Part shown: in pieces, positions 8,515 to 23,506 of the stretch
How the letters are laid out: each line of letters opens with the position of its first letter
How positions within the stretch are numbered: position 1 is the stretch's first letter
Source of the DNA: Tepidimonas sediminis
GTDB taxonomy: Bacteria > Pseudomonadota > Gammaproteobacteria > Burkholderiales > Burkholderiaceae_C
Direction: 5' to 3'
Assembly: GCF_007556605.1 (NCBI RefSeq)
Contig: NZ_VJND01000001.1
Location: forward strand, 248,001-312,000
Length of the DNA stretch: 64,000 bases
The notes under the pieces: generated by a model
The model's input: only the letters and a program-made list of their open reading frames with translations
What the model was told of the DNA's origin: nothing
Databases searched by the model: none
Position numbers and translations under genes: made by a program

Positions 8515-10020
8515 ATGGGGCGGCTGCCTCTGCGTTGGCTGGTGCCGTTGGCGATGCTGGGGGTCGCGTTCGTGGGCGGCGCGGCGGTGGTCCTGGTGAC
8601 CCTGCTGCTGCTGGACCAGACCGTCCGCGGCAATGCCCAGGAGGAGACGCGGCGTCTTGCCCGCACGCTGGCGCGGGCCTTGGTGGAGCCGGTCGTGCGC
8701 GGTGATGTCTGGCAGGCTTATCAGTTGGTGCGCGCAGCGGGGGAATCCTTTCCGGACGAACCGCGCGAGGTCGTGGTGCTCGGAGATGACGAGCGTGTGC
8801 TGGCCGCTTCGCAGCCGATGCGCTTCCCGCTTGGTCAGCACCTGGGGGCGTTTCCCGACGACCTGGTGCAGGCGGTGCGGGCGGCGCGGTACGCACAGCG
8901 CGACGTGATGCTGGCGCCATGGCTGCGTGAGGCCGGCGGGGAAACGGTGCTGGTCATGGCCGAGCCCATCGTCGGCGACGACGGGCTGCACCTGGGCACC
9001 GTGCTGGCGGTGCATCCCACCGGCCTGACGGAACGCCAGCGACGTGCGCTGGTGCAGCGCCTCGGTCTACTCGGGCTGGTCACGCTGGCGCTGGTCGGCA
9101 TCGGCGGGGCGGTGCTGGGCTGGCGTCTGGCACGGCCGATCGGGGCTCTGCGCGATTCCATGGCGCGCGTCGGTGGGCAGGAGACGTGGTCGCGCGCGCT
9201 GGACGACCGCGCCTTGCAGCCCTTGTTGTCACGTCGCGACGAGGTGGGCGAGCTGGCACGGACCTACCGCACCATGTTGCGCCAGCTCGACAGTCAGCGG
9301 GTGCTGGAGCGGCAAGTGCTGGAGGCCGAGCGCCTGGCCCGAGTGGGCCAGATGGCGGCCTCCATCGCTCACGAGGTGAACAATCCCATCGGCGGCATGC
9401 TGGCTGCCCTGGACAACCGGCGTCTGCGTGGAGGACTCGACGAGGCCTCCGCGCACACGCTCGACCTGATCGAACGCGGGCTGCGCCACATTCACGGCAC
9501 CGTGCAGGCGCTGCTCAACGAGTCGCGCGCCGAACAGCACCCCCTGCAGCCGCAGGATCTCGACGATCTGCGCACCTTGCTGCAGCCCGTCCTCGAGCGT
9601 TCCCGTGTGGAGCTGATCTGGGCGCTGCAGCATCCGCCCGTCCCGTTGCCGGCCCTGACGGTGCGACAGGTCCTGCTCAACCTGTGCCTGAATGCGGCGG
9701 CGGCCGCCGGTCCCGGGGGGCGGGTGGCGGTGCAAGGTGAAACGTCGGCCGACGGGTGGCGTGTTCGGGTGGCCAACACCGGTCGAGAGCTCGACGGCGA
9801 AACCTTTGACGAGTTGGTCAGCGGGCGGCGCTGGGATGAAGGGCGCCGCGTCGGCCTCGGGCTTTGGGTCTGCGCGCGGCTGCTGGCCGACACCCGCGGC
9901 AGCCTGCGGTGGATGGGACGGCAGGGGCAATGGGCCACCGTTCTGGAGGCCGCCTTCGAGGCCGGCGCCGGCGCTGCGGACCGGGAGGAGCGAGATGCTG
10001 GTCGACTTGATCGAGGATGA
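8515..10020 (+). CDS. arxS: membrane sensor histidine kinase (ArxS-like)
   Basis: 501 residues. A first membrane segment lies at about residues 9-34 (VPLAMLGVAFVGGAAVVLVTLLLL), then a periplasmic sensor domain to about 180 and a second membrane segment LGLLGLVTLALVGIGGAVLGW. A HAMP-like linker, the phospho-acceptor box SIAHEVNNPIGG near residue 285, and an ATPase domain follow (LLNLCLNAAAAAG as N-box, GLGLWVCARLL as G-box). It probably phosphorylates the response regulator whose gene overlaps its last 26 bp, after the upstream binding protein reports ligand. In a cell oxidising arsenite the ligand would be arsenite or arsenate, but nothing in the sequence names it. Confidence 0.8.
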   Translation: MGRLPLRWLVPLAMLGVAFVGGAAVVLVTLLLLDQTVRGNAQEETRRLARTLARALVEPVVRGDVWQAYQLVRAAGESFPDEPREVVVLGDDERVLAASQPMRFPLGQHLGAFPDDLVQAVRAARYAQRDVMLAPWLREAGGETVLVMAEPIVGDDGLHLGTVLAVHPTGLTERQRRALVQRLGLLGLVTLALVGIGGAVLGWRLARPIGALRDSMARVGGQETWSRALDDRALQPLLSRRDEVGELARTYRTMLRQLDSQRVLERQVLEAERLARVGQMAASIAHEVNNPIGGMLAALDNRRLRGGLDEASAHTLDLIERGLRHIHGTVQALLNESRAEQHPLQPQDLDDLRTLLQPVLERSRVELIWALQHPPVPLPALTVRQVLLNLCLNAAAAAGPGGRVAVQGETSADGWRVRVANTGRELDGETFDELVSGRRWDEGRRVGLGLWVCARLLADTRGSLRWMGRQGQWATVLEAAFEAGAGAADREERDAGRLDRG

Positions 10021-11371
10021 CGTCTTCATGGGCGAGGCGCTCACCGAGCGCCTGCAGCTGGAGGGCATGCGCTGCCGCTGGTGGCGCGGGGCGCAATCGG
10101 CCTTGCAGGCGGCGCAGGAGGCGGGCGCCCCCGACGTCGTGATCTGCGACGTGCGCCTCGGCGACGGGGACGGAACCGAACTGCCGCAGCGCCTGCCCGC
10201 GGGTTGGCGCCAGGTGCCGTGGATCTACATCACCGGCTTTGGATCGCACGCCCTGCGCGAGGCGTTGCTGGCGCGCGGCGCCCTGGACTTTCTGACCAAG
10301 CCGCTGGACATGGATCGGCTGCTGCGCCACCTGCGCGCGCTGGCGGGCCAGCGGCGCCAGGATCCCGCGACGCTCAAGGAGGGTGCCATGCCAGGCATCA
10401 GCTGCCCCCTGGGTGTCTCCAGCGAGATGCGGCGCATCCACTCGCTGATCCAGCGTCTGGGGGGGCACTGGCAGACCGTCCTGATCACGGGGGAGTCGGG
10501 CGCCGGGAAGGAGGAACTGGCGCGCTGTCTGCACCGAGAGACGGTCGGTCCGGATCGCCCGTTCGTCGCCGTCAACACCGCCTCGCTGCCCGACAGCCTC
10601 GTCGAAGCCGAGCTGTTCGGCTACGAGCGCGGTGCCTTTACCGGGGCCAACCGAACCCACCGAGGGCTTTTCGAGCAGGCCGATGGGGGCACCCTCTTCC
10701 TCGACGAGATCGGCGACATGCCGCTGGCCTTGCAGGCGCGTCTTCTGCGCGTGTTGCAGGATCGGCGCATCGCCCGCCTGGGTGGGGAGCGCGAGCTGCA
10801 GATCGACGTTCGCCTGATCTTCGCCACCCACCGCCGTCTGCACGAGGAAGTCCGTGCCGGGCGTTTCCGCGAGGATCTGTACTACCGCATCAACGTCGTG
10901 CACCTGCATGTGCCCCCGCTGCGCGAGCGACCGGAGGATATCGGCTGGCTGGCGCAGCGCTTCCTGGCGCAGTGGAACCAGGCCCATCCGGGGCGGCCGC
11001 GCCGCCTGGGGCCCTTGACCGAGGCGTGGCTGTCCAGCCAGCGATGGCCCGGCAATGTGCGCGAGCTGCGCAACGCGATCGAGCGGGCCTGCCTGCTGGC
11101 GCCGGAGGAGGAGCTGGTGCCGGCGCATTTCATCGATGCGATGGCGCCGGCGCCCGAGACGCCGTGGGGTGGCGAGCCGCCCCAGCGGCCCCCAACGGAG
11201 CCGCCGCAGGGCGAGGTCGAGCGGCTGGAGGACTACCTGCGCCGGCAGGAGCGTCTCTACATCGAGCAGATGCTGGCTCGCCACGGCTGGCAGATCGGCG
11301 TCACCGCCGAGTCGCTGGGCATCAGCCGCAAGAATCTGTGGGAGCGCATGAAGCGGCTGGGTATCCAGTGA
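9995..11371 (+). CDS. arxR: sigma54-dependent response regulator (ArxR-like)
   Basis: 458 residues of the NtrC type. A receiver domain (LIEDDVF acidic pocket, phospho-Asp in VVICDVRLGDGDG, Lys in LTKPLD) leads to an AAA+ domain with Walker A GESGAGKEE, the sigma54-contact loop GAFTGA (in YERGAFTGANR) and Walker B LFLDEIGDM. It ends with a Fis-type helix-turn-helix (WQIGVTAESLGISRKNLWERMKRLG). GGAGGAG precedes the start, and the first 26 bp overlap the kinase gene. The likely targets are the twin palindromes at 7546-7604 and the sigma54 promoter at 7464-7479. Confidence 0.82.
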   Translation: MLVDLIEDDVFMGEALTERLQLEGMRCRWWRGAQSALQAAQEAGAPDVVICDVRLGDGDGTELPQRLPAGWRQVPWIYITGFGSHALREALLARGALDFLTKPLDMDRLLRHLRALAGQRRQDPATLKEGAMPGISCPLGVSSEMRRIHSLIQRLGGHWQTVLITGESGAGKEELARCLHRETVGPDRPFVAVNTASLPDSLVEAELFGYERGAFTGANRTHRGLFEQADGGTLFLDEIGDMPLALQARLLRVLQDRRIARLGGERELQIDVRLIFATHRRLHEEVRAGRFREDLYYRINVVHLHVPPLRERPEDIGWLAQRFLAQWNQAHPGRPRRLGPLTEAWLSSQRWPGNVRELRNAIERACLLAPEEELVPAHFIDAMAPAPETPWGGEPPQRPPTEPPQGEVERLEDYLRRQERLYIEQMLARHGWQIGVTAESLGISRKNLWERMKRLGIQ

Positions 11372-11404: not shown

Positions 11405-12307
11405 TCAGCCCGCGCGCCGCCACAGCGCCTGCCCGGCGCGGATCGTGCGGCCCGGCTCGATGCCGTCGGCCAGCCGCCAGTGCGCCGGCACGAACAGGAT
11501 CATGGTCGAGCCGTGCTCGAACCAGCCCATCTCCTGCCCGCGGCTTAAGCTCGCGTCGCACGGCAGCTCGTGCGGGCCGCGCCAGCGCAGGTGCAGCGTG
11601 ACGTCGAGGAAGTGCAGCCGGATGCTGGCCACCAGGATCGCCGCCACCGGCACCAGCGCGATCGGGCTGCCGTCCGGCAGCGTCGCCTCGATCAGCGCGC
11701 GCTCGTTGCGGCAGAACAGCGCCGGGATGCGCCGCAGCGCCGGGGGGTTGACGTTGAAGACGTCGCCGCTGACGTAGCGCACGCGCCGCACGTGCAGGTC
11801 GGACGGGGCGTGGAAGCGGTGGTACATCGTCGAGGTCAGCCGCAGCGTGACGAAGCGCCCGTTGGCGTGCACCGCGGCGGCCTCGGGGCCGATCAGGTCC
11901 TCCAGCGGATAGGGCATGCCCTTGGCCTGCCAGACGGTGGCGCCATGCACGTCGCCGCAGGCGCCGACGATGGCGTCGCACGGGCTGCACAGCACGTCCG
12001 GGTCGGGGTCGAAGGGGCGCGCGCCGTCGCGCAGCGCGCGCGTGAAGACGTCGCGCAGGCTGCGGTAGTCGGCCGGGGCGGCCTCGCTCAGATCCAGGTC
12101 CGCAAACAGTCGCCACACTGCCAGCGCCAGGCGCGTGAAGGTTCGGTTCTCGATGCGGCTCAGCCGCCCCATCAGCAGGGTCAGCGCCACGCGTGGCACG
12201 TGGTTGGTCAGCGCGAAGTTGAGCGATTCGTGCTGCAGCACGCGGTCGCGCCAGGCGCGCCAGCCGGCCGGCGCGGGCTGCGATTTCACAGGCGTGTCAA
12301 AGGGCAT
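11405..12307 (-). CDS. psd: phosphatidylserine decarboxylase
   Basis: 300 residues. Features of the pyruvoyl-dependent decarboxylase are present: CSPCDAIVGACGDV, the segment STMYHRFHAPSDLHVRRVRYVSGDVFNVNP near residues 160-190, and the processing site GST in FEHGSTMILF near 265, where self-cleavage would make the pyruvoyl group. It converts phosphatidylserine to phosphatidylethanolamine at the inner membrane. It diverges from the aminotransferase gene with only 43 bp between the coding regions. Its setting in a lipid-renovation cluster raises the possibility of a specialised second Psd with another acidic headgroup as substrate; this is inference. Confidence 0.82.
   Translation of the reverse strand: MPFDTPVKSQPAPAGWRAWRDRVLQHESLNFALTNHVPRVALTLLMGRLSRIENRTFTRLALAVWRLFADLDLSEAAPADYRSLRDVFTRALRDGARPFDPDPDVLCSPCDAIVGACGDVHGATVWQAKGMPYPLEDLIGPEAAAVHANGRFVTLRLTSTMYHRFHAPSDLHVRRVRYVSGDVFNVNPPALRRIPALFCRNERALIEATLPDGSPIALVPVAAILVASIRLHFLDVTLHLRWRGPHELPCDASLSRGQEMGWFEHGSTMILFVPAHWRLADGIEPGRTIRAGQALWRRAG
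12283..12300 (+). promoter_or_regulatory. weak Pho-box-like 7-4-7 element before the aminotransferase
   Basis: ATTTCAC-AGGC-GTGTCAA, five of seven matches in each half to CTGTCAC, with the correct 4-bp spacer. TAGAAC at 12311-12316 sits at the expected -10 distance. It lies inside the 5' end of psd on the opposite strand. On its own the match is weak; it gains weight only from the other elements in this cluster. Confidence 0.3.
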
Positions 12308-12350
12308 ACGTAGAACTATCGCGCAACGCGTTGAAGGAATGGTGACACCG

Positions 12351-14030
12351 ATGCTCGAACCGGTCTGGTGGGGGGCCGCCGCGGCGCTGGCGGCCGCGCC
12401 GTGGGGCTGGCGGCGGCTGCGTCTGTCGCGCGCCAAGGCGCCGTCGCTTGCGGGGCACCCGCGCATGGCCAAGCGCGTGGCCCGCTGGCTGCCCGGCTAC
12501 GCGCTGCAGGCACCGCAGGCGTTCGCGCTGGACGGCGCGCCGGCCGACTTGGTGCAGGCGCGTCTGCAGGGCTGGCAGGCGCTGTCGCAGCGGCTGCGCA
12601 CAGCTGCGCCGCAGACGCTGGCGCTGACCGCGCAGGCGCGCGACGGCATGCCGGACCTGCGCCTGACCGGGCGCTACCGTGTGCCGTATCCGTTCGCGCA
12701 GCTCGCGCGCGAGCTGCCGGTGGGCGCCTTCTGGGCGCGCAACGACGGCCCGTGGCTGATCGATCTCGATGGCAACCGCTTCCTCGACCTGACCGGCTCC
12801 TATGGCGTCAACGTGCTGGGGCTGGACTTCTACAAGGGCACGGTGGAGGAGGGCGCGCGCCTCGGCGCGGCGCTGGGGCCGGTGCTGGGCGGCCTGCACC
12901 CGTGCGTGGCCGACAACGTCGCGCGCCTGAAGGCCCTGAGCGGCATGGACGACGTGACGTTTCACATGTCCGGCACCGAAGCGGTGATGCAGGCCGTGCG
13001 GCTGGCGCGCTACCACACCGGGCGGCGCTACGTGGTGCGCTTCGCCGGCGCCTACCACGGCTGGTGGGAGGACGTGCAGCCCGGCCCCGGCAACCCGCTG
13101 CCGCCGCGCGAGACCTACACGCTGGCGGACCTGAGCGAGGCGACGCTGGAGGTGCTGCGCACGCGGCGCGACATCGCCTGCGTGCTGGTCAACCCGCTGC
13201 AGGCGCTGCACCCCAACCGCGCCGCGCCGAGCGACTCCACACTGGTCAGCGGCGCGCGCGCGGCGGGCTTCGACCGCGACGCCTACGCGCGCTGGCTGCT
13301 GCGCCTGCGCGCGGTCTGCACCGAGGCCGGCATCGCGCTGATCTTCGACGAGGTGTTCGTCGGCTTTCGCCTGGCGCCGGGCGGCGCGCAAGCGTATTTT
13401 GGCGTGCAGGCCGACCTGGTCTGCTACGGCAAGACGCTCGGCGGCGGCCTGCCGGTCGGCGTGGTCTGCGGCAAACGGCGCTGGATGGAGCGCTTCCGCC
13501 CCGAGCGCCCGGCCGATCTGTGCTTCGCGCGCGGCACCTTCAACGCCCACCCCTACGTGATGGGGGCGATGAACGCCTTCCTGCGCGCGCTGGATCGGCC
13601 GGAGGTGCGCGCCGCCTACGACGGGCTGGACGAGCGCTGGCAAGCGCGCGAGCGGCGCTTCAACGCGGCGCTGCAGGCCGCCGGCGTGCCGGTGCGGGTG
13701 GCGGCGCTGTCGTCGATCTGGACGGTGCTCTACACCCAGCCGGGGCGCTACCACTGGCTGCTGCAGTATTACCTGCGCGACGCGGGGCTGGCGCTGAGCT
13801 GGGTCGGCACCGGGCGGCTGATCTTTCCGATTGCGCTGGAGGAATCGGTGTTCGAGGAGACGCTGCAGCGGTTTCTGTCCGCCTGCCGGCGCATGCAGGC
13901 CGACGGCTGGTGGTGGCGCGACGAGGCGCTGCCGCCCGAGGCGTGGGCCCGCCGCCTGCGCCGCGGCCTGCTGCGCGAGACGCTGCAGGCCTGGTGGCAG
14001 GCCCGACGGCGCGATCGGGCCGCCGCCTGA
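12351..14030 (+). CDS. class III (glutamate-1-semialdehyde aminotransferase-like) PLP enzyme with N-terminal extension
   Basis: 559 residues, over 100 longer than glutamate-1-semialdehyde aminomutase. The first ~110 residues are an extra segment beginning with a short hydrophobic stretch (WWGAAAALAAAPWGW) and basic residues, suggesting membrane attachment. The catalytic part shows the cofactor pocket (MSGTEAVMQAVRLAR, AYHGWW), LIFDEVFVGFR with the PLP-ring Asp, and CYGKTLGGGLPVG with the Schiff-base Lys at about residue 361. The substrate is unknown. Divergence from psd and neighbours olsB, plcP and a lipid glycosyltransferase suggest a role in making an amino headgroup or tail for a membrane lipid. 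It is not the haem-pathway HemL judging by length and context. ATG at 12339 is an alternative start. Confidence 0.7.
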   Translation: MLEPVWWGAAAALAAAPWGWRRLRLSRAKAPSLAGHPRMAKRVARWLPGYALQAPQAFALDGAPADLVQARLQGWQALSQRLRTAAPQTLALTAQARDGMPDLRLTGRYRVPYPFAQLARELPVGAFWARNDGPWLIDLDGNRFLDLTGSYGVNVLGLDFYKGTVEEGARLGAALGPVLGGLHPCVADNVARLKALSGMDDVTFHMSGTEAVMQAVRLARYHTGRRYVVRFAGAYHGWWEDVQPGPGNPLPPRETYTLADLSEATLEVLRTRRDIACVLVNPLQALHPNRAAPSDSTLVSGARAAGFDRDAYARWLLRLRAVCTEAGIALIFDEVFVGFRLAPGGAQAYFGVQADLVCYGKTLGGGLPVGVVCGKRRWMERFRPERPADLCFARGTFNAHPYVMGAMNAFLRALDRPEVRAAYDGLDERWQARERRFNAALQAAGVPVRVAALSSIWTVLYTQPGRYHWLLQYYLRDAGLALSWVGTGRLIFPIALEESVFEETLQRFLSACRRMQADGWWWRDEALPPEAWARRLRRGLLRETLQAWWQARRRDRAAA

Positions 14031-14097
14031 AGCCGGCGCGCCGCGTTCAACAATCCGGCCCGCCCGCGCGGCCCTCGGGCGGGCCGGCGCCGCGCCG

Positions 14098-14709
14098 TCA
14101 GCCGGCGCGCCGGTGGCCCGGGTCGAGCAGCTGGCCGCGCAGCAGGTACAGCGGCGCGCGGTGGTAGAGCTTGATGTCGTGGAACGGGTCGGTGAGGATC
14201 TTCGTCACCCAGACGATGCCGGTGTAGAGGTCCTTCTCGACCCACAGCTGCAGCACGCGCACCAGCAGCCCGCCGACGCCGATCACGAACCACAGCCAGC
14301 CGACGTTGTGCCAGAAGCCGCGCCAGTCCTCGTGCGGCTCGAGCCACCCGAACGCCGTCGGATCCCACACCAGCAGCAGCGGCGAGGCCGCCCACACCGT
14401 CATCAGCACCACCTTGCGCTTGAGGTTGTAGCCGACCTTGACCGCCTCCTTGTACTCGTGCGTCACCTGGTTGACGTGGTCGTAGCCCTTCGGTTCGAAG
14501 AAGAAATGTCCCGACTGGCGCGTCACCATCGAGATGCCCCAGGCGATCAGCGCGGCGGTGGCGGGGTCCTGGAACAGCCACACGTAGGCGACCACGAAGC
14601 TGATCGCGCTGATCAGGTGCAGCGTCTGGTTGATGCGGCTTTGGTGGTAGTAGCGGTGGTCGTCCCAGCGCTGCTCGCGCAGGGTGTGCAGGAAGCGTTG
14701 CAGCATCAT
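14098..14709 (-). CDS. Mpo1/DUF962-like polytopic membrane protein
   Basis: 203 residues with four or so hydrophobic segments. The N-terminus carries YYHQSRINQTLHLIS, matching the H-x-x-N-x-x-x-H pattern of the Mpo1 (DUF962) family, and later QSGHFFFEPKGYD, matching its GHxxFE motif. Yeast Mpo1 is an Fe(II)-dependent dioxygenase that shortens 2-hydroxy fatty acids. In this neighbourhood a role in trimming or recycling hydroxylated acyl chains of aminolipids is an attractive guess. The two Met codons at 14706 and 14709 are equivalent starts. It diverges from the glycosyltransferase gene, with Pho-box-like elements between them. Confidence 0.6.
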   Translation of the reverse strand: MMLQRFLHTLREQRWDDHRYYHQSRINQTLHLISAISFVVAYVWLFQDPATAALIAWGISMVTRQSGHFFFEPKGYDHVNQVTHEYKEAVKVGYNLKRKVVLMTVWAASPLLLVWDPTAFGWLEPHEDWRGFWHNVGWLWFVIGVGGLLVRVLQLWVEKDLYTGIVWVTKILTDPFHDIKLYHRAPLYLLRGQLLDPGHRRAG

Positions 14710-14809
14710 CGGGTGTCCTCGTCGAGGGGGGGAAAGGGGCAGGGGAAACGCGGCCGCGTGCGCCGCGGTGGGGCGGCGGCTGCGGCGCTCGTCATGGTTG
14801 CGACATCGT

Positions 14810-14827
14810 GTGACGCCACGGTGACGT
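14810..14827 (-). promoter_or_regulatory. Pho-box-like element facing the Mpo1-like gene
   Basis: The minus strand reads ACGTCAC-CGTG-GCGTCAC, two half-sites with 7-4-7 spacing and five of seven matches each to CTGTCAC. It lies about 100 bp before the Mpo1-like start and back-to-back with the stronger element that faces the glycosyltransferase. Confidence 0.35.
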
Positions 14828-14845
14828 CCGCGTCCGCGCCGGGGT

Positions 14846-14863
14846 CTGTCACACCGCTGTCGC
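14846..14863 (+). promoter_or_regulatory. Pho box before the lipid glycosyltransferase
   Basis: CTGTCAC-ACCG-CTGTCGC: the first half is a perfect match and the second six of seven, with the canonical 4-bp spacer. It ends 24 bp before the annotated start, so either the leader is very short or translation starts at a later codon such as the Met at 14903. Confidence 0.65.
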
Positions 14864-14887
14864 ACGCCGCGGCCAAGCTCGCCGTCC

Positions 14888-16138
14888 ATGGATGCGCGCC
14901 TGATGATCGAGAGCTATCCGCCCCGCCGTGCGCTGCTGCGCGTCTCGGTGGTCACCGAAACCTTCCCGCCCGAGGTCAACGGCGTGGCCACCACGGTGGA
15001 GCGGCTGGTGCGCGGGCTGCAGCTGCGCGACCACCACGTGCAGGTGGTGCGGCCGCGCCAGGCGGCCGACGCCTGGGACCGCGACGGTAGCCGCTTGGGG
15101 CTGGAGCAGGTGCTGACGCGCGGCCTGCCGATCCCGCGCTACCCGCAGCTGCGCATGGGGTTGCCGGCGCAGCGCGCGCTGCAGGCGCTGTGGATGCGCC
15201 GCCGCCCCGACATCGTGCACATCGCCACCGAAGGCCCGCTGGGCTGGTCGGCGCTGCGCACCGCGCGCAAGCTGCAGCTGCCGGTCAGCACGGACTTCCG
15301 CACCAACTTCGACGCCTACAGCGAGCACTACGGCGTCGGCTGGCTGCGCCGCTCGGTGCAGGCCTACCTGCGGCGCTTTCACAACCACGCCGACTGCACG
15401 CTGGTGCCCACAGAGGGTTTGCGCCAGCAGTTGCGCGCTGCGGGGTTTGAGCGGCTCATCGTTGTGCAGCGCGGCGTGGATGTCGATCGTTTCACCCCCG
15501 CGCTGCGCAACCCGGCGTTGCGTGCGGTTTGGGGGGTGGGACCCGACGAGCGCGTGCTGCTGTATGTCGGCCGCCTGGCGCCCGAGAAGAACCTGGAGCT
15601 GCTGGCGGCGGTGTACGATGCCATGCGCGCGGTGCAGCCGGGTTGGCGGCTGGTGGTGGTGGGCGACGGGCCGCAGCGCGCCTGGCTGGCGCAGCGCTGC
15701 CCGCAGGCGGTGCTGCTCGGGGCGCTGGCCGGCGAGGCGCTGGCGCAGGCCTACGCCAACGGCGACCTGCTGGCCTTCCCGAGCTTGACGGAGACTTTTG
15801 GCAACGTGACGCTGGAGGCGCTGGCCAGTGGGCTGCCGGTGCTGGCGTTTGACTACGCGGCCGCGGCCGAAGTGGTGCGCCATGGCGAAAGCGGTCTGCT
15901 GGCCCCGGTCGGCGATGCGCAGGCTTACCTGCAATGTGCGCGCGCGGTGGCGGGTGACGATGCGTTGTTGCAGCGCTTGCAAGGTGGCGCCGTGCATGCG
16001 GTGCAGCACTTGGGCTGGGGGCGCATTGTCGAGCAGGTGGAGTCGATTTGGTTGCGGCTGCTGGCGGCGCACGCTGCTGGGCCGGCGGTGGTCAAGTCGT
16101 CGCCGTGGTGGGACGGTCTGCCTGCCACCGGCGCGTGA
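14888..16138 (+). CDS. GT4 glycosyltransferase, Agt-type lipid glycosyltransferase candidate
   Basis: 416 residues with two Rossmann halves. The N-terminal signature VSVVTETFPPEVNGVATTVERLV starts about 19 residues in, as in diacylglycerol glycosyltransferases and mannosyltransferases of family GT4. The C-terminal half has YVGRLAPEKNLELL and the E-x7-E motif in TETFGNVTLEALASGLPV. It would transfer a sugar from an NDP donor to a lipid such as the diacylglycerol released by the PlcP-type enzyme encoded at 18369. Its last 47 bp overlap the convergent lplT gene. Sugar specificity cannot be read here; an LPS or mannolipid role is the alternative. Confidence 0.7.
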   Translation: MDARLMIESYPPRRALLRVSVVTETFPPEVNGVATTVERLVRGLQLRDHHVQVVRPRQAADAWDRDGSRLGLEQVLTRGLPIPRYPQLRMGLPAQRALQALWMRRRPDIVHIATEGPLGWSALRTARKLQLPVSTDFRTNFDAYSEHYGVGWLRRSVQAYLRRFHNHADCTLVPTEGLRQQLRAAGFERLIVVQRGVDVDRFTPALRNPALRAVWGVGPDERVLLYVGRLAPEKNLELLAAVYDAMRAVQPGWRLVVVGDGPQRAWLAQRCPQAVLLGALAGEALAQAYANGDLLAFPSLTETFGNVTLEALASGLPVLAFDYAAAAEVVRHGESGLLAPVGDAQAYLQCARAVAGDDALLQRLQGGAVHAVQHLGWGRIVEQVESIWLRLLAAHAAGPAVVKSSPWWDGLPATGA

Positions 16139-17339
16139 GACCCCACAGCAGCGCCAGTCCCAGCGCCATCGTCACCCCGAGCGCCGACAGCAGCGGCACC
16201 AGCGGCCAGTCGGCGCGCATCGCCAGGGCCAGTGCCCCCAGCATCACGAGGACGCTCGCATTCTCGTTGAAGCCCTGGATGGCGATCGACTGCCCCGGCT
16301 GCAGCAGCCGGTGGCCGCGGTACTGCAGCAGCGCGTTCATCGGCACCACCAGCATCCCGCCCAGCGCGCCGATGACCAGCAGCCCCAGCACCGCGAGCTC
16401 CAGCTCCCGCGTGTGCACCGCCACCGCCAGCAGCGCGCCCAGCACGACGCCCAGCGGCAGCACGCGCCAGGCGCGGCGCAGCTCCACCCGCCGCGCCACC
16501 CACACCGCGCCGGCCACCACGCCCAGCGCCACGGTGGCCTGCAGGTAGGCCGCCTGCGACAGCGGCAGGTCTAGCCGCAGCTCGGCCCAGCGCAGCACGG
16601 CGATCTGCATCAGCGCACCGAAGCCCCAGAACCACGTCGTCACCGCCAGCGACAGCCCGCCGAGCGGGTCGCGCCACAGCCGCGCGTTGTCGCGCCAGAA
16701 GCGCGGCCACAGCGTCGGCCAGTCGCGCAGCGGCAGCGCGCGCCGCGCCGGCCGCGACGGGATGTGGCGGTTGCACCAAGCCGCAAGGCCGTAGAGCGCC
16801 AGCACCGCCGTGAACGCCGGCAGCAGCGCCGTGGCCGGCAGCCAGCCGTCCAGCCCCAGCCGGGCCAGCGCCTGCGGCGCCTGCCAGGCCGGCGACACCC
16901 ACCAGCCGCCCAGCGCCGTGCCGAGCAGCACCGACAGCACCACCGACACCTCCACCCAGCCGTTGGCGGCCACCAGGTCGCGCCCCGGTGTCGATTCGGT
17001 GATCCAGCCGTACTTGGCCGGCGCGTACAGCGCCGCCGCCAACCCCAGCAGCGCGAACGCCGCCAGCGGGTGCGCGCCGGCCACGAGCGCGGCCACCGCC
17101 AGCGCCTTCAGCGCGTTCATGCGCCCCATCAGCACGTTCTTGCGCACCGCGTCGGCCCAGGCGCCGGCCACCGGCGCCAGCAGCACGTAGCTCCACGTGA
17201 AGGCGAACTTCAGCAGCGGGGCCCACCATAGCGGGTGGCGCTGCTCCTGCAGATAGGCGATCGCGACGATCAGCACCGCGTGGTCGGCCAGCCCCGAGAG
17301 GAACTGCGCCGCCAGCAACCAGAAAAAACCCGCCGGCAT
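16092..17339 (-). CDS. lplT: lysophospholipid transporter (MFS, LplT type)
   Basis: 415 residues with about twelve membrane helices. The start MPAGFFWLLAAQFLSGLADHAVLIVAI, the loop AGAWADAVRKNVLMGRMNALK and the segment YAPAKYGWITE are characteristic of LplT. LplT flips lysophospholipids across the inner membrane for re-acylation; no Aas acyltransferase is fused or adjacent. The coding end overlaps the convergent glycosyltransferase by 47 bp. Placement between a lipid glycosyltransferase and olsB fits a membrane-remodelling unit, where lyso-lipids would need moving. Confidence 0.8.
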   Translation of the reverse strand: MPAGFFWLLAAQFLSGLADHAVLIVAIAYLQEQRHPLWWAPLLKFAFTWSYVLLAPVAGAWADAVRKNVLMGRMNALKALAVAALVAGAHPLAAFALLGLAAALYAPAKYGWITESTPGRDLVAANGWVEVSVVLSVLLGTALGGWWVSPAWQAPQALARLGLDGWLPATALLPAFTAVLALYGLAAWCNRHIPSRPARRALPLRDWPTLWPRFWRDNARLWRDPLGGLSLAVTTWFWGFGALMQIAVLRWAELRLDLPLSQAAYLQATVALGVVAGAVWVARRVELRRAWRVLPLGVVLGALLAVAVHTRELELAVLGLLVIGALGGMLVVPMNALLQYRGHRLLQPGQSIAIQGFNENASVLVMLGALALAMRADWPLVPLLSALGVTMALGLALLWGLTRRWQADRPTTATT

Positions 17340-17399
17340 GGGGTGGGCAGTCTGGCGCCGCTGCGTGACACGCGCGTGAAGCTGCGCCGGCCGCGCGCG

Positions 17400-17417
17400 A
17401 TGTCATGCCGCTGACAT
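17400..17417 (+). promoter_or_regulatory. Pho box in the lplT-olsB intergenic region
   Basis: ATGTCAT-GCCG-CTGACAT, six of seven matches in each half to CTGTCAT with the canonical 4-bp spacer. The sequence is nearly symmetric, so it also scores on the opposite strand facing lplT. It lies 95 bp before olsB. Confidence 0.6.
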
Positions 17418-17511
17418 GGAACCGCCAAGGCCGCGTCACGCCCGCCGCCCAGAATGCCCAGCCGTGGGCGGCCGCGGCGCCGCCCGCCACCCCAAGCGGA
17501 GATGACGCCCG

Positions 17512-18369
17512 ATGAAAGAGCTTCCGACGCCCACGCTGCACCTGTCCACCCTGGTTGGGGGCCAGACCCCGGGCCGCACGGCCGGGAGGTTGCTTCCAGC
17601 GCACGCGGCCGATGCTGCCGCTGCGCCCGCTGCGCGCCTGGAGGTGGCGTGGGCGCGCCACCTCGACGACGTGCGCGCCGCCCAGCGCCTGAGGTACGCG
17701 GTGTTCGCCGAGGAAATGGGCGCGCGCCTGCGCACGCCGCTGCCGGGGCACGACATCGACCTGTTCGACGACTACTGCGAGCATCTGCTGGTGCGCGAGG
17801 CCGACACCGGTGAGGCGATCGGCACCTACCGCGTGCTCACCCCCGCGCAGGCCAAGCGCGTCGGCTGCTTCTACAGCGACACCGAGTTCGACCTGACGCG
17901 CCTGCGCGCCCTGCGCGAGCAGATGGTGGAGCTGGGCCGCTCCTGCGTGCACCCGCAGCACCGCCACGGCGGCGTCATCATGGCGCTGTGGGGGGCACTG
18001 GCGGACTTCATGGTGCGCAACCGGCTGGACGTGATGATCGGCTGCGCCAGCATCCCGATGCACCACGAGGGCCCGCACGGCATGGCCGGCGGCGGCCACG
18101 CCGCGGCCAGCATCTGGCGCCAGGTGCGCGAGCGCCATCTGGCGCCGGTGGAGTTCCACGTCACGCCGCGGCTGGCGCTGCCGGTGCACGAGCTGGACGA
18201 CACGCTGCCGGTGGAGCCACCGGCGCTGGTCAAGGGCTACCTGCGGCTGGGCGCCAAGGTGCTGGGCGCACCGGCCTGGGACCCGGACTTCAACACCGCC
18301 GACCTGCCGATGATGATGCGGCTGGCGGACCTGCCGCCGCGCTACCGGCGCCACCTGCTGGGGGCCTGA
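17512..18369 (+). CDS. olsB: L-ornithine N-alpha-acyltransferase (OlsB-type, hemolysin-like GNAT)
   Basis: 285 residues. After a ~45-residue variable leader comes the family core: RLRYAVFAEEMGARL, DIDLFDDYCEHLLVRE, GTYRVLTP, the 'GRSCVHPQHRHGGVIMALWGAL' region (acyl-donor binding) and DVMIGCASIPM. OlsB attaches a 3-hydroxyacyl group from acyl carrier protein to ornithine, giving lyso-ornithine lipid. The O-acylating partner OlsA is not in the window. Its stop overlaps the start of the PlcP-type gene (TGATG), so the two are co-translated. A Pho box upstream fits induction by phosphate limitation. Confidence 0.82.
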   Translation: MKELPTPTLHLSTLVGGQTPGRTAGRLLPAHAADAAAAPAARLEVAWARHLDDVRAAQRLRYAVFAEEMGARLRTPLPGHDIDLFDDYCEHLLVREADTGEAIGTYRVLTPAQAKRVGCFYSDTEFDLTRLRALREQMVELGRSCVHPQHRHGGVIMALWGALADFMVRNRLDVMIGCASIPMHHEGPHGMAGGGHAAASIWRQVRERHLAPVEFHVTPRLALPVHELDDTLPVEPPALVKGYLRLGAKVLGAPAWDPDFNTADLPMMMRLADLPPRYRRHLLGA

Positions 18370-19283
18370 TGCTGCGCGCGTGGCTCCCGGGCGGGGTGGC
18401 GACGCGCCTGCCGGCTGCGCCGCCGCCGGCGCCGCTGCCGCCGGGGGACGACGACGACCTGGGCGCGCGCGGCGGCGAGCGGCTGCGCGCGGTGTTCATC
18501 TCCGACCTGCACCTGGGCACGCCGGGCTGCCAGGCCAAGGCGCTGCTGGCGTTCCTGAAGGCGCATCCGAGTGACCGGCTGTACCTGGTCGGCGACATCA
18601 TCGACGGCTGGCAGCTGCGCCGGCGCTGGTACTGGCCGCAGAGCCACAACGACGTCGTGCAGAAGATCCTGCGCCGCGCGCGCAAGGGCTGCCGGGTGGT
18701 GTTCATCCCCGGCAACCACGACGAGTTCGCGCGCCACTTCGTCGACCACCAGTTCGGCGGCGTCGACGTCGTGGCCGAGGCGGTGCACGTCACCGCCGAT
18801 GGGCGCCGGCTGTGGGTGACGCACGGCGACCTGTACGACGGCGTGGTGCAGTACGCGCGCTGGCTCGCCTGCCTCGGCGACACGCTGTACGAGTGGGCGC
18901 TGCGGCTGAACCGCCACCTCAACTCGCTGCGCGCGCGGCTGGGGCTGCCGTACTGGTCGCTGTCGCAGTACCTCAAGCACCGCGTCAAGTCGGCCGTCAA
19001 CTTCATCACCCGCTTCGAGGAGGCGCTGGCGCACGAGGCGCGCCGCCGCGGGCTGGACGGCGTCGTCTGCGGTCACATCCACCGGCCGGAGATCCGCGTC
19101 ATCGACGGCGTGCTGTACTGCAACGACGGCGACTGGGTGGAGAGCCTGAGCGCCCTGGTGGAGCACCGCGACGGCCGGCTGGAGCTGGTGCACTGGGCGC
19201 AGCGGCAGACCGCGCCGGCGGCGGCTCCGGCACCCGGGGTTGTCACCGAGCCGTCAGGAAAAGGCCCTTCGGGCGCGAAATAA
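18369..19283 (+). CDS. plcP: PlcP-type phospholipase C (calcineurin-like metallophosphoesterase)
   Basis: 304 residues. Metallophosphoesterase motifs appear in order: SDLHLG, GDIIDGW, GNHDE, THGD and GHIH, which together bind two metals. The long conserved stretches RRRWYWPQSHNDVVQKILRRARKG, YWSLSQYLKHRVKSAVNFI and YCNDGDWVES are typical of the rhizobial/marine PlcP group. That group is usually mislabelled UDP-2,3-diacylglucosamine hydrolase and removes phosphorylated headgroups from PE or PC to free diacylglycerol and phosphate. Coupling to olsB and a nearby GT4 enzyme is the combination expected for phosphate-starvation lipid exchange. The first ~35 residues are Pro/Asp-rich and not part of the fold. 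Confidence 0.75.
   Translation: MLRAWLPGGVATRLPAAPPPAPLPPGDDDDLGARGGERLRAVFISDLHLGTPGCQAKALLAFLKAHPSDRLYLVGDIIDGWQLRRRWYWPQSHNDVVQKILRRARKGCRVVFIPGNHDEFARHFVDHQFGGVDVVAEAVHVTADGRRLWVTHGDLYDGVVQYARWLACLGDTLYEWALRLNRHLNSLRARLGLPYWSLSQYLKHRVKSAVNFITRFEEALAHEARRRGLDGVVCGHIHRPEIRVIDGVLYCNDGDWVESLSALVEHRDGRLELVHWAQRQTAPAAAPAPGVVTEPSGKGPSGAK
19240..19257 (+). promoter_or_regulatory. Pho-box-like element before ppk
   Basis: TTGTCAC-CGAG-CCGTCAG: six and five matches out of seven with correct spacing. It lies inside the 3' end of plcP, 81 bp before the ppk start. There is no convincing -10 at the canonical distance, though an A/T-rich AAATAAT follows at 19278-19284. Confidence 0.35.
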
Positions 19284-19337: not shown

Positions 19338-21413
19338 ATGACCGCCACGCCGATCTTCCGTCACGCCTTCCTCGACCGCGATCAGAGCATCCTGGCCTTC
19401 AACGAGCGGGTGCTCGACTGGGCTTGCCGGCGTGACGTGCCGCTGTTGGAGCGGCTGCGCTACCTGGCCATCGTCTCCTCCAATCTGGATGAATTCTTCG
19501 AGGTGCGCTTTGCGCCGCACCACGCCGCGCGGCTGGCCAACGAGCAGCGCGGCGTCGCCACGGTGGAGACCTACCACGCGCTGACGCAGCGCATCCAGGC
19601 GCTGGTGGCGCGCCAGTACGCCATCTACAACGACGAGCTGCTGCCGGCGCTGGAAAAGCGCGGCATCCGCATCATCACCCACGGTGAGCGCAACCCGCGC
19701 CAGCGTCGCTGGGTGCGCGACTATTTCGTCAACGAGGTCCAGCCGCTGCTGCTGCCGGTGGCGCTCGATCCGGCGCACCCGTTCCCGCAGGTGGCCAACA
19801 AGTCGCTCAATTTCATCGTACGCCTGGGCGGGCGCGACGCGTTCGGTCGCGAGCACGAGATCGCCATCGTCAAGGTGCCGCGGGCGCTGAAGCGCTTCGT
19901 GCTGATGCCCGGCGTCAAGGGCTCGCGCCAGCAGCACTTCGTCTCCATCTCCAGCATCATCCGCGCCCACCTGCCCGATCTGTTTCCCGGCCGCACGGTG
20001 CTGGAGTTCTCGCAGTTCCGTGTCACGCGCCACTCGGACCTGGCGCTGGATGAGGAGGAGGTCAAGAACCTGCGCACCGCACTGCGGCTGGGACTGCAGC
20101 AGCGCCACTTCGGCCAGGCCCTGCGGCTGGAGGTCTCGGCCGGCTGCTCCGATTTTCTGGCCAACTTCCTGCTCGAGCAGTTCGAGCTGCCGCCGGAAAG
20201 CCTCTACCGCGTGCCGGGCCCGGTCAACCTCGTGCGGCTGAATCAGTTGATCGATCTGATCGACGCGCCGGCGCTGCGCTTCGAGCGCTTCACGCCGGGC
20301 TGGCCGGTGGGGTTGACCCCGGGGCAGTCGTTCTTCGAGCGGCTCAAGCAGGGCGATGTGCTGATCCACCAGCCGTTCGAGAGCTTCGATGCGGTGCTGG
20401 CCTTCCTGCGCGAGGCGGTCGAGGACCCCGACGTGCTGGCGATCAAGCAGACCATCTACCGCACCGGCGCGCGCGGCGAGATGACCGAGCTGCTGCGCGA
20501 GGCGGTGCGCCGCGGCAAGGAGGTCACCGCGGTGGTGGAGCTGAAGGCCCGCTTCGACGAGGAGGCCAACATCAACCACGCCGAGCGGCTCGAGTCGGTG
20601 GGGGCACAGGTGGTCTACGGCATCGTGGGCCTGAAGACCCACGCCAAGATGCTGCTGGTGACGCGGCGCGAGAACGGCCGCCTGGTGCGCTACGCGCACC
20701 TGTCCACCGGCAACTACAACCCCGGTACCGCCAAGCTCTACACCGACCTGTCCTACCTGACCGCGGATGAGGACCTGACCGCCGACGTCGACGCCGTCTT
20801 CAACCACCTGGCCAGCCAGAACCGGCTGCCGCGGCTGCGCAAGCTGCTGATGGCGCCGTTCCTGCTGCAGAAAGGGCTGCTGGAGCGCATCGAGGCCTGC
20901 ATCGAGGCCGCGCGCGCCGGCAAGCCGGCGCAGATCCTGCTGAAGATGAACGCGCTGACCGACGAGCCGCTGGCGCGCGCGCTGGTGCATGCCTCGCAGG
21001 CCGGGGTGCAGGTGGACGCGATCGTGCGCGGCGCCTGCATCCTGCCGGCCGGCGTGCCGGGCCACACCGACCACGTGCGCATCCGCTCGATCGTCGGCCG
21101 CTTCCTCGAGCACTCGCGCGTGTTCTACTTCCGCCATGGCGAGCACGAGGAGCTGTGGCTGGCCAGCGCCGACTGGATGAACCGCAACATGCTGCGCCGC
21201 GTGGAGCTGGCCTGGCCGGTGACCGACCCGCACCTGCGCGCGCGCGTGATGGAGGAGTGCCTGCGCCTGTACCTGGCCGACCAGCGCGACGCCTGGCTGC
21301 TGCAGCCGCATGGTGAGTACGTCAAGGCCTCGAGCCTGGCACCGAAGGCCGGCCGCGGCGCGCTGCCGTCGGCGCAGGCGACGCTGATGGCCCGCTACGG
21401 CAGCAAAGGGTGA
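19338..21413 (+). CDS. ppk1: polyphosphate kinase 1
   Basis: 691 residues, full length for PPK1. The N-terminal domain starts at FLDRDQSILAFNERVLDWA. The head domain is followed by the C-terminal PLD-like catalytic halves: IKQTIYRTG, GLKTHAKMLLVTR with the phosphorylated His, and HLSTGNYNPGTAKLYTD. It polymerises ATP gamma-phosphate into polyphosphate. The downstream order ppk-sixA-ppx (ppx reversed) links synthesis with degradation. Its place beside pst-pho and a Pho-box-like element suggest PhoB control. Confidence 0.93.
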   Translation: MTATPIFRHAFLDRDQSILAFNERVLDWACRRDVPLLERLRYLAIVSSNLDEFFEVRFAPHHAARLANEQRGVATVETYHALTQRIQALVARQYAIYNDELLPALEKRGIRIITHGERNPRQRRWVRDYFVNEVQPLLLPVALDPAHPFPQVANKSLNFIVRLGGRDAFGREHEIAIVKVPRALKRFVLMPGVKGSRQQHFVSISSIIRAHLPDLFPGRTVLEFSQFRVTRHSDLALDEEEVKNLRTALRLGLQQRHFGQALRLEVSAGCSDFLANFLLEQFELPPESLYRVPGPVNLVRLNQLIDLIDAPALRFERFTPGWPVGLTPGQSFFERLKQGDVLIHQPFESFDAVLAFLREAVEDPDVLAIKQTIYRTGARGEMTELLREAVRRGKEVTAVVELKARFDEEANINHAERLESVGAQVVYGIVGLKTHAKMLLVTRRENGRLVRYAHLSTGNYNPGTAKLYTDLSYLTADEDLTADVDAVFNHLASQNRLPRLRKLLMAPFLLQKGLLERIEACIEAARAGKPAQILLKMNALTDEPLARALVHASQAGVQVDAIVRGACILPAGVPGHTDHVRIRSIVGRFLEHSRVFYFRHGEHEELWLASADWMNRNMLRRVELAWPVTDPHLRARVMEECLRLYLADQRDAWLLQPHGEYVKASSLAPKAGRGALPSAQATLMARYGSKG

Positions 21414-23472: not shown

Positions 23473-23506
23473 ATGTCACGGAAGTGTCACGAAGCGTTTC
23501 TACGAT
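23473..23506 (+). promoter_or_regulatory. Pho box and -10 of the pst operon
   Basis: ATGTCAC-GGAA-GTGTCAC at 23473-23490 matches the PhoB consensus at six of seven in each half. TACGAT at 23501-23506 starts exactly 10 bp later, the standard position for a PhoB-dependent -10. The pstS start lies about 60 bp downstream. Confidence 0.8.

Follow-up and report, generated by a model that had tools for sequence, protein, structure and literature searches.

Gene layout at the Tepidimonas locus

We analyzed a 64-kb stretch of the Tepidimonas sediminis contig NZ_VJND01000001.1 (hereafter the window), which belongs to a high-GC genome of 2.53 Mb, and centered on a cluster of seven genes that includes a trio coding for a second, divergent copy of the phosphatidylserine decarboxylase Psd, a class-III pyridoxal 5′-phosphate (PLP)-dependent aminotransferase and an Mpo1-like membrane protein. 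The cluster is laid out as three divergent gene pairs: In the first, psd (11405..12307, minus strand; PF02666 and TIGR00163) is paired with the aminotransferase gene (about 12339..14030, plus strand; PF00202), the product of which bears an N-terminal extension and is 97% identical to a protein of Tepidimonas alkaliphilus, the closest named relative of this genome. In the second, the gene for the Mpo1-like protein, a putative Fe(II) oxygenase matching PF06127 below the cut-off (14098..14709, minus strand), is paired with that for an Agt-like family 4 glycosyltransferase (GT4), putatively acting on diacylglycerol (14888..16138, plus strand; PF13439 and PF13692). In the third, the gene for the lysophospholipid transporter LplT (16092..17339, minus strand; NF008397 at 407 bits, cut-off 297) is paired with the olsB-plcP unit, coding for an OlsB-type GNAT protein, a putative ornithine N-acyltransferase (17512..18369, plus strand; PF13444), and a putative PlcP-type phospholipase C, so named for its similarity to a Pseudomonas aeruginosa PlcP-type protein (18369..19283, plus strand). 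These are followed by ppk1 for polyphosphate kinase (19338..21413, plus strand; NF003918 at 1019 bits, cut-off 691), which places the cluster in a phosphate context. The seven genes are not one operon.

A first-pass annotation of this DNA had reported the seven genes at these positions, with plcP contiguous with the OlsB-type gene and the whole beside ppk-ppx-pst-phoBR. Family searches and the open reading frames confirm the seven placements; the ATG of plcP shares one base with the olsB stop codon; and the phosphate genes are indeed nearby, ppk1 being recognized by family search, and ppx and the pst-phoU-phoB-phoR genes (the latter 4–14 kb farther along) by eye from their translations. Genes for an NtrC-type sensor kinase and a sigma-54 response regulator (8515–11371) are convergent with psd and end 33 nucleotides from its stop codon; we rejected this pair as a part of the system since it is present in just one (L008) of the 80 related loci described below.

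The trio and its variable neighbors

The 80 related loci were collected by means of the aminotransferase alone (L136, L137 and L139, which had been fetched for other reasons, were left out). Within 1.5 kb of the aminotransferase gene, 79 of the 80 code for Psd and 79 for the Mpo1-like protein, and 78 code for a GT4 within 4 kb; given these frequencies, the arrangement is not one of chance. The three loci with gaps in this core lie on contigs of 3–9 kb. The other neighbors are variable: OlsB is found in 13, LplT in 32 and PlcP in 33 of the 80 loci (when only the 45 loci flanked by 8.5 kb or more in each direction are counted, the figures are 11, 19 and 17, respectively), and the position of PlcP relative to the core differs, with some loci having it to one side and some to the other. 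Owing to this variability, we rejected the seven genes as a single conserved system, and the extended seven-gene PlcP system envisaged by the first-pass annotation was not borne out.

In a sample of 200 Burkholderiales genomes, the aminotransferase was detected at E ≤ 1e-60 in 24. The Mpo1-like protein is encoded by all 24 of these carriers versus 1 of the 176 other genomes (Fisher p = 4e-30), and the trio-type Psd by all 24 versus 1 of the 56 others tested, the one exception being G063 in both cases; the counts are of genomes and not of independent events. The Psd test covered 80 of the 84 intended genomes, with G062 and G065–G067 omitted and G063, in which the Mpo1-like gene was already known, kept. 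Given their co-presence in the same 24 genomes, Psd, the aminotransferase and the Mpo1-like protein are inherited as a unit, with the GT4 as its usual neighbor. Thus, the survey of co-occurrence in Burkholderiales that had been suggested for all seven genes returned a fixed association for these three, while PlcP, LplT and OlsB proved variable.

Two genomes are recorded here in their own right. G063 has adjoining genes for Psd and the Mpo1-like protein (G063:C1:1496138-1497829) and no aminotransferase at E ≤ 1e-60; it is the sole such genome in the order sample. L047, from a metagenome-assembled genome labelled Bordetella parapertussis, carries the Psd–aminotransferase–Mpo1-like–GT4 core; the label is doubtful, since L049, a metagenome-assembled genome of Burkholderiales, has exactly the same site in its GT4 promoter.

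In other lineages, a plasmid of Sphingomonas parapaucimobilis carries the trio, the identities to their counterparts being 61% for the aminotransferase, 58% for the Mpo1-like protein and 55% for Psd, which bears the trio signature described below. A PmtA-like methyltransferase is encoded beside the trio in L106, L108, L111 and L146: in the Sphingomonas plasmid, L106, L108 and L111, the gene adjoining that for the Mpo1-like protein has the PmtA phospholipid N-methyltransferases as its best family, with these PmtA-like proteins scoring 134–156 bits, well below the cut-off of 390. In L121 (L121:5960-8729 and L121:9007-13030), Psd is missing; the aminotransferase is encoded there together with a GT4 and a distant Mpo1-like protein, and beside them stand genes for a methyltransferase, PlcP and a member of PF11899 (the BtaA family).

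Predicted phosphate control and probable lipid-renovation context

Predicted Pho boxes lie in two of the divergent promoters of the cluster, namely mpo1-like|GT4 (14846..14863, plus strand), with 11 of 14 consensus matches, and lplT|olsB (17400..17417, plus strand), which with 12 of 14 is the best consensus match in the 64 kb and precedes olsB-plcP. These are the only two sites with at least 11 matches in the window, and because 2.3 such sites are expected by shuffling, their number alone proves nothing. Among the relatives, a predicted Pho site is present upstream of the GT4 gene in 49 of 78 loci, whereas shuffling gives a mean of 2.4 and a control set of 390 random windows from the same loci contains 3. 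Such sites are also found upstream of the genes for OlsB (8/13), Psd (25/79), the aminotransferase (25/80), LplT (9/32) and Ppk (6/9, with stretches shorter than 300 nucleotides omitted from the counts, hence nine of 12), with psd and the aminotransferase gene having a common promoter region in most loci. In the family f239, from genomes of 6–9 Mb, sites with 12–13 of 14 matches are seen at psd|aminotransferase in four of five loci.

We also scanned the window with a matrix built from the GT4 promoter sites of 46 relatives, Tepidimonas and the closest loci being excluded and the training sites having been preselected by consensus. The predicted box upstream of pstS (23473..23490, plus strand), an internal positive control, ranked first with a score of 19.5, followed by lplT|olsB (15.3) and mpo1-like|GT4 (15.2); a candidate box in the 3′ end of plcP, 98 nucleotides upstream of ppk1 (19240..19257, plus strand), ranked fourth, within the range of the top sites of shuffled windows. 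Since the GT4 site is homologous to the training sites, it is those of pstS and olsB that count as independent finds, and since the shuffled tops score 11–18, what matters for the second and third sites is where they lie, not how high they score. The phosphate-starvation control assumed in the first-pass annotation is thus matched by predicted Pho boxes in both the window and its relatives, and a phosphate link of the island in Burkholderiales is, as a prediction, well supported.

The plcP product, a metallophosphoesterase, is 58% identical over 242 amino acids to the P. aeruginosa PlcP-type protein WP_003091510, the gene for which stands before a glycosyltransferase and a cyclase gene; from this gene order, we infer that it is PA3219. 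According to the published report, mutants and expression link PA3219 (PlcP) and PA3218 (Agt1) to the diacylglycerol-based glycolipids of phosphate-starved cells (PMC8528852). An alternative, already disfavored and in our estimate highly improbable, is that the phosphoesterase is the LpxH of lipid A synthesis and its neighborhood ordinary envelope housekeeping. It could draw on weak matches to the LpxH model (46–55 bits) and on the public annotation of plasmid-borne relatives as UDP-2,3-diacylglucosamine diphosphatase, but the window protein reaches only 46 bits with that model, for which the cut-off is 190.35, and at most 33 bits against LpxH structures. Moreover, all 26 trio genomes that were tested have a separate LpxH match, which exceeds the cut-off in 23; in the genome holding the window it is at C6:55774, with 190.1 bits, or 190.4 when neighbors in frame are included, which narrowly reaches the cut-off. 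Together with the identity to the P. aeruginosa protein, the separate LpxH supports the earlier assignment of a PlcP-type phospholipase C rather than a UDP-diacylglucosamine enzyme, and we treat the protein as PlcP-like.

The GT4 of the window is 38% identical to the P. aeruginosa Agt1-type (PA3218-type) protein, which supports the earlier call of a lipid glycosyltransferase near PlcP as an Agt-like enzyme, with diacylglycerol as a putative acceptor, GT4 homology alone being no proof. The best NCBIfam models for the GNAT protein are those for OlsB, yet it scores 157 bits with NF052554, under the cut-off of 350, and is thus described as OlsB-type, with OlsB itself a putative identity. Genome-wide, OlsB is present in 19 of the 24 trio carriers versus 122 of the 176 other Burkholderiales genomes (p = 0.47); owing to this lack of association, we rejected the idea that the trio is a substitute for ornithine lipid.

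Under phosphate starvation, as the homologies and predicted Pho boxes would have it, PhoB could turn on PlcP, the GT4 and the OlsB-type enzyme. PlcP would then cleave the phospholipid head group to leave diacylglycerol, the Agt-like GT4 would glycosylate the latter, and the OlsB-type enzyme would contribute to ornithine lipid in Tepidimonas, such that phospholipids would be replaced by glycolipids and ornithine lipid. Of the set for swapping phospholipids that the first-pass annotation had recognized, PlcP, the Agt-like GT4, the OlsB-type protein and the predicted phosphate control therefore stand, and the unity of the seven genes does not. The prediction that the locus is a PhoB-controlled membrane-lipid renovation island is well supported, and we lean, if modestly, towards an island of this kind with a lipid-making trio inside it.

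PlcP-Agt lipid renovation is known from P. aeruginosa (PA3219-PA3218), Methylosinus, roseobacters and SAR11. Like that pathway, the island features a PlcP-type phosphoesterase, a GT4 of the Agt kind and predicted Pho boxes, to which is added the OlsB-type gene; unlike in it, PlcP and the GT4 are not adjacent and the GT4 instead goes with the Psd–aminotransferase–Mpo1-like unit. In the survey of plcP neighborhoods by Sebastian et al. 2015 (PMC4796936), too, plcP occurs close to genes for glycosyltransferases or for non-phosphorus lipids, in some cases with Pho boxes.

At the level of whole genomes, PlcP and the trio tend to occur together. In the first 120 genomes of the order sample, a strong PlcP match is found in 15 of 15 trio carriers versus 44 of 105 others (p = 8e-6), being within about 12 kb of the trio in nine of the 15 (two of these copies, in G013 and G094, have stops); in a phylum sample, PlcP is found in 22 of 28 carriers, ten of them in one genus, versus 155 of 369 others (p = 2e-4). 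The six carriers lacking PlcP are G574, G646, G670, G673, G692 and G841, some with fragmented assemblies. We retrieved five of the six, and each of them codes beside the trio for a GT4 fusion of about 900 residues (L116:2344-5025, L117:2719-5385, L118:3674-6355, L119:6375-9110 and L120:6108-8984); a sixth fusion (L123:10844-13552) comes from a class sample, the absence of PlcP referring to the other five genomes. The N-terminus of the fusion displays the motifs HxH, TxTNHN and GG[TS]DDH, with PHPL in three of the five, which suggest a putative PHP-type metallohydrolase. A Pfam scan at E up to 1 returned no PHP domain in its N-terminal 400 residues, and the L123 protein matches the NCBIfam CehA/McbA metallohydrolase model at 5.6e-4 (19.4 bits, under the cut-off of 80). 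It is natural to suppose, though unproven, that this hydrolase–GT4 fusion takes the place of PlcP and the separate GT4.

The linkage of PlcP and the trio might also be taken as mere clustering of the Pho regulon, with the trio serving some purpose outside membrane renovation, such as the synthesis of a secreted compound or a soluble amine. This would account for the presence of ppk, ppx and the pst genes in the same Tepidimonas neighborhood, and for the many trio genomes in which PlcP is unlinked or absent; we nevertheless hold it to be decidedly unlikely, given that the Psd, GT4, PmtA-like, PF11899 and PlcP-type neighbors in several lineages resemble lipid enzymes.

Possible chemistry of the trio

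The trio Psd scores 163.7 bits with TIGR00163, above the cut-off of 111.75, and keeps the GST cleavage motif and the conserved D and H of SP.D and YHR.H, motifs with catalytic roles in Psd. The other Psd of the genome, an E. coli-type protein encoded on C9, shows LSPRDYHRIHMPC and LGST, as is usual; in the trio Psd these are replaced by L[TK]xxMYHRFHAP and [EQ]HGST. Among 111 trio Psds, MYHRFHAP is present in 106, [EQ]HGST in 110 and both in 105. The genome thus has two Psd copies, of which that of the trio is the divergent one: it is of the same family as the E. coli enzyme (6l06) and keeps the GST site, the YHR.H motif and the conserved D, but it is a second gene copy with a changed signature around these motifs. 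It is predicted to be a member of the PS-decarboxylase family, with activity on phosphatidylserine (PS) putative.

A second Psd under predicted phosphate control raises the prospect that the trio feeds PlcP. In such a scheme, Psd (with the PmtA-like enzyme where present) would turn PS into phosphatidylethanolamine (PE) or phosphatidylcholine (PC), both substrates of PlcP, thereby sustaining diacylglycerol during starvation, and the aminotransferase would dispose of the released head group or amine. The juxtaposition of Psd and PmtA-like genes, the Pho sites in the f239 loci and the co-occurrence of PlcP with the trio are in its favor, and the identification of the aminotransferase as a phosphoethanolamine phospho-lyase, salvaging the product of PlcP, had seemed a neat fit. 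That identity is disfavored: with the aminotransferase as query, 62 proteins of solved structure match at E ≤ 1e-10, and no such enzyme is named among the best 60 of the 62. Furthermore, the genome already has its E. coli-type Psd, the trio Psd has a signature of its own, and the Mpo1-like protein is left unexplained; we regard this scheme as doubtful.

The aminotransferase scores 104 bits with PF00202 (cut-off 30.5), and its PLP lysine and aspartate motifs, DEVF.GFR and YGK, are invariant in 17 aligned proteins (the alignment rows being a chosen spread throughout: A1 23, A2 17, A3 28 and A4 21). Both by sequence and by predicted fold, its closest solved relative is the aminotransferase domain of the mycosubtilin protein MycA (6kfm/6kfu), at under 30% identity. 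It shares the PLP-site motifs and fold of the MycA/GSAM-type class-III aminotransferases but differs from them in standing alone, in an N-terminal extension of about 120 residues with a start that is hydrophobic in many homologues, and in the invariant stretches AYHGWW and NPxQxxHPN; it is probably membrane-associated.

The Mpo1-like protein gives 18.7 bits (E 0.0019) with PF06127 in the window, 20.6 in Sphingomonas and 23.3 in two other relatives, against a cut-off of 24. It shows the H..N..LH and Q..GH...E pattern and the hydrophobic helices of the Mpo1 (DUF962) dioxygenases, from which it differs in its 203 residues versus the 95 positions of the Pfam model, its score below the cut-off and its long conserved C-terminal half. 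Across 23 aligned proteins, D16, D17, H18, H22, N27, Q28, H31, Q65, G67, H68, E72, P73 and D77 are invariant, and the conserved H and E residues suggest a putative Fe(II) oxygenase. The structural model is confident and helical, with a predicted local distance difference test (pLDDT) score of 88.5, and a fold search with it returned no match to a solved fold (best E 1.3).

These two proteins could conceivably modify acyl chains instead, with the Mpo1-like protein oxidizing or shortening 2-hydroxy acyl chains and the aminotransferase producing an amino fatty acid, which is what the MycA domain does when mycosubtilin is made. The solved relatives that are closest in sequence and fold, namely MycA, GSAM and the beta-aminotransferases, point in this direction, as does the Pfam designation of Mpo1 as a 2-hydroxy-palmitic acid dioxygenase. 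However, beyond the low identity to MycA, this leaves Psd unexplained, though it is co-inherited as strictly as the Mpo1-like protein, and no acyl-carrier protein or thioesterase was noticed by eye in nine neighborhoods, no dedicated search having been made; we judge it unlikely. The feeding of PlcP and this change of acyl chains are the main rivals to the synthesis of an amine-bearing lipid, which we tentatively favor for the trio.

For such a synthesis, we propose that the Mpo1-like oxygenase might introduce a carbonyl group into a lipid or its head group, which the aminotransferase could convert to an amine or an alpha-amino acid; the Psd-like enzyme could then decarboxylate the alpha-amino acid to yield a phosphorus-free amine lipid. 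A PmtA-like enzyme encoded beside the trio, as in Sphingomonas, L106, L108 and L111, could N-methylate the amine lipid. The order of these steps comes from chemical logic and is not evidence; the steps, the substrate and the product are all inferred. That the trio makes an amine-bearing, phosphorus-free polar lipid by this chemistry is a tentative proposal, well short of an even chance, and its product may be a lipid not yet described. With slightly greater reserve still, we suggest that the trio, together with the Agt-like or hydrolase-fused GT4, might constitute an undescribed PhoB-controlled module for a phosphorus-free, amine-headed lipid analogous to PE (or to PC with the PmtA-like enzyme), spread across Burkholderiales, other Gammaproteobacteria (in the GTDB sense) and Alphaproteobacteria.

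Phosphorus-free betaine lipids of phosphate starvation are made by BtaA/BtaB. The proposed product would resemble those of BtaAB and OlsBA in being a phosphorus-free amino lipid of phosphate starvation, but the enzymes of the trio differ, and a BtaA-family gene beside the aminotransferase was identified solely in L121. In P. aeruginosa, ornithine lipid is such a phosphorus-free amino lipid of phosphate starvation, as given in PMC9804370. Word searches found neither aminotransferase nor decarboxylase in the available text of PMC4796936, PMC8528852 (in this case for “phosphatidylserine decarboxylase”), PMC9239053 and PMC9804370, and no Mpo1 in that of PMC4796936, PMC8528852 and PMC9804370; the main text of Sebastian et al. 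2015 (PMC4796936) also lacks the word transaminase. Among the titles and abstract beginnings listed in our search of the open-access literature, we found no description of the trio, though one may be in print elsewhere.

Several observations weigh against this picture of the island and its trio. As regards gene content, L121 and L122 have the aminotransferase and the Mpo1-like protein without Psd; in nine of the 23 class and phylum loci L106–L128, GT4 or Psd was not detected (some of the nine being on short contigs), and across these 23 the GT4s are distant and PlcP is nearby in only four. The trio further shows no association with OlsB in either direction. As regards the proteins, the nearest solved relative of the aminotransferase is a synthase aminotransferase domain, which fits the acyl-chain rival; 66 of its 106 homologues have an N-terminus hydrophobic enough to pass the threshold, and in the closest Tepidimonas, L007, this feature is weak; and the Mpo1-like protein is below the PF06127 cut-off in all four matching proteins. 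As regards regulation, the regions upstream of PlcP carry a Pho site in only 4 of 33 loci, the psd|aminotransferase site of the window is a weak one, ranking eighth with a score that shuffled windows also reach, and, f239 aside, the other 18 of the class and phylum loci have a site with 12 or more matches near a cluster gene solely in L127 and L128.

How bacteria renovate their lipids when phosphate is limiting is currently explained by PlcP-Agt, OlsBA and BtaAB. The co-inherited, Pho-boxed trio, carried by many Burkholderiales and by Sphingomonas, fits none of these and would predict an undiscovered lipid; if this is true, the amine-headed lipid would add a third strategy to those based on ornithine and betaine lipids. 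The trio also provides a functional context for the poorly characterized bacterial Mpo1-like family, and the fusion of the GT4 with a putative metallohydrolase may unite the functions of PlcP and Agt in a single polypeptide.

Finally, two minor observations concern PlcP: A scan of viral contigs for PlcP yielded two loci. The P. aeruginosa plasmid pHPA0698-2 (L152:3953-7734) carries a block with a PlcP-type gene, a glycosyltransferase, a cyclase and an annotated Mpo1-like gene, such that an Mpo1-like gene is found near plcP on a P. aeruginosa plasmid too.

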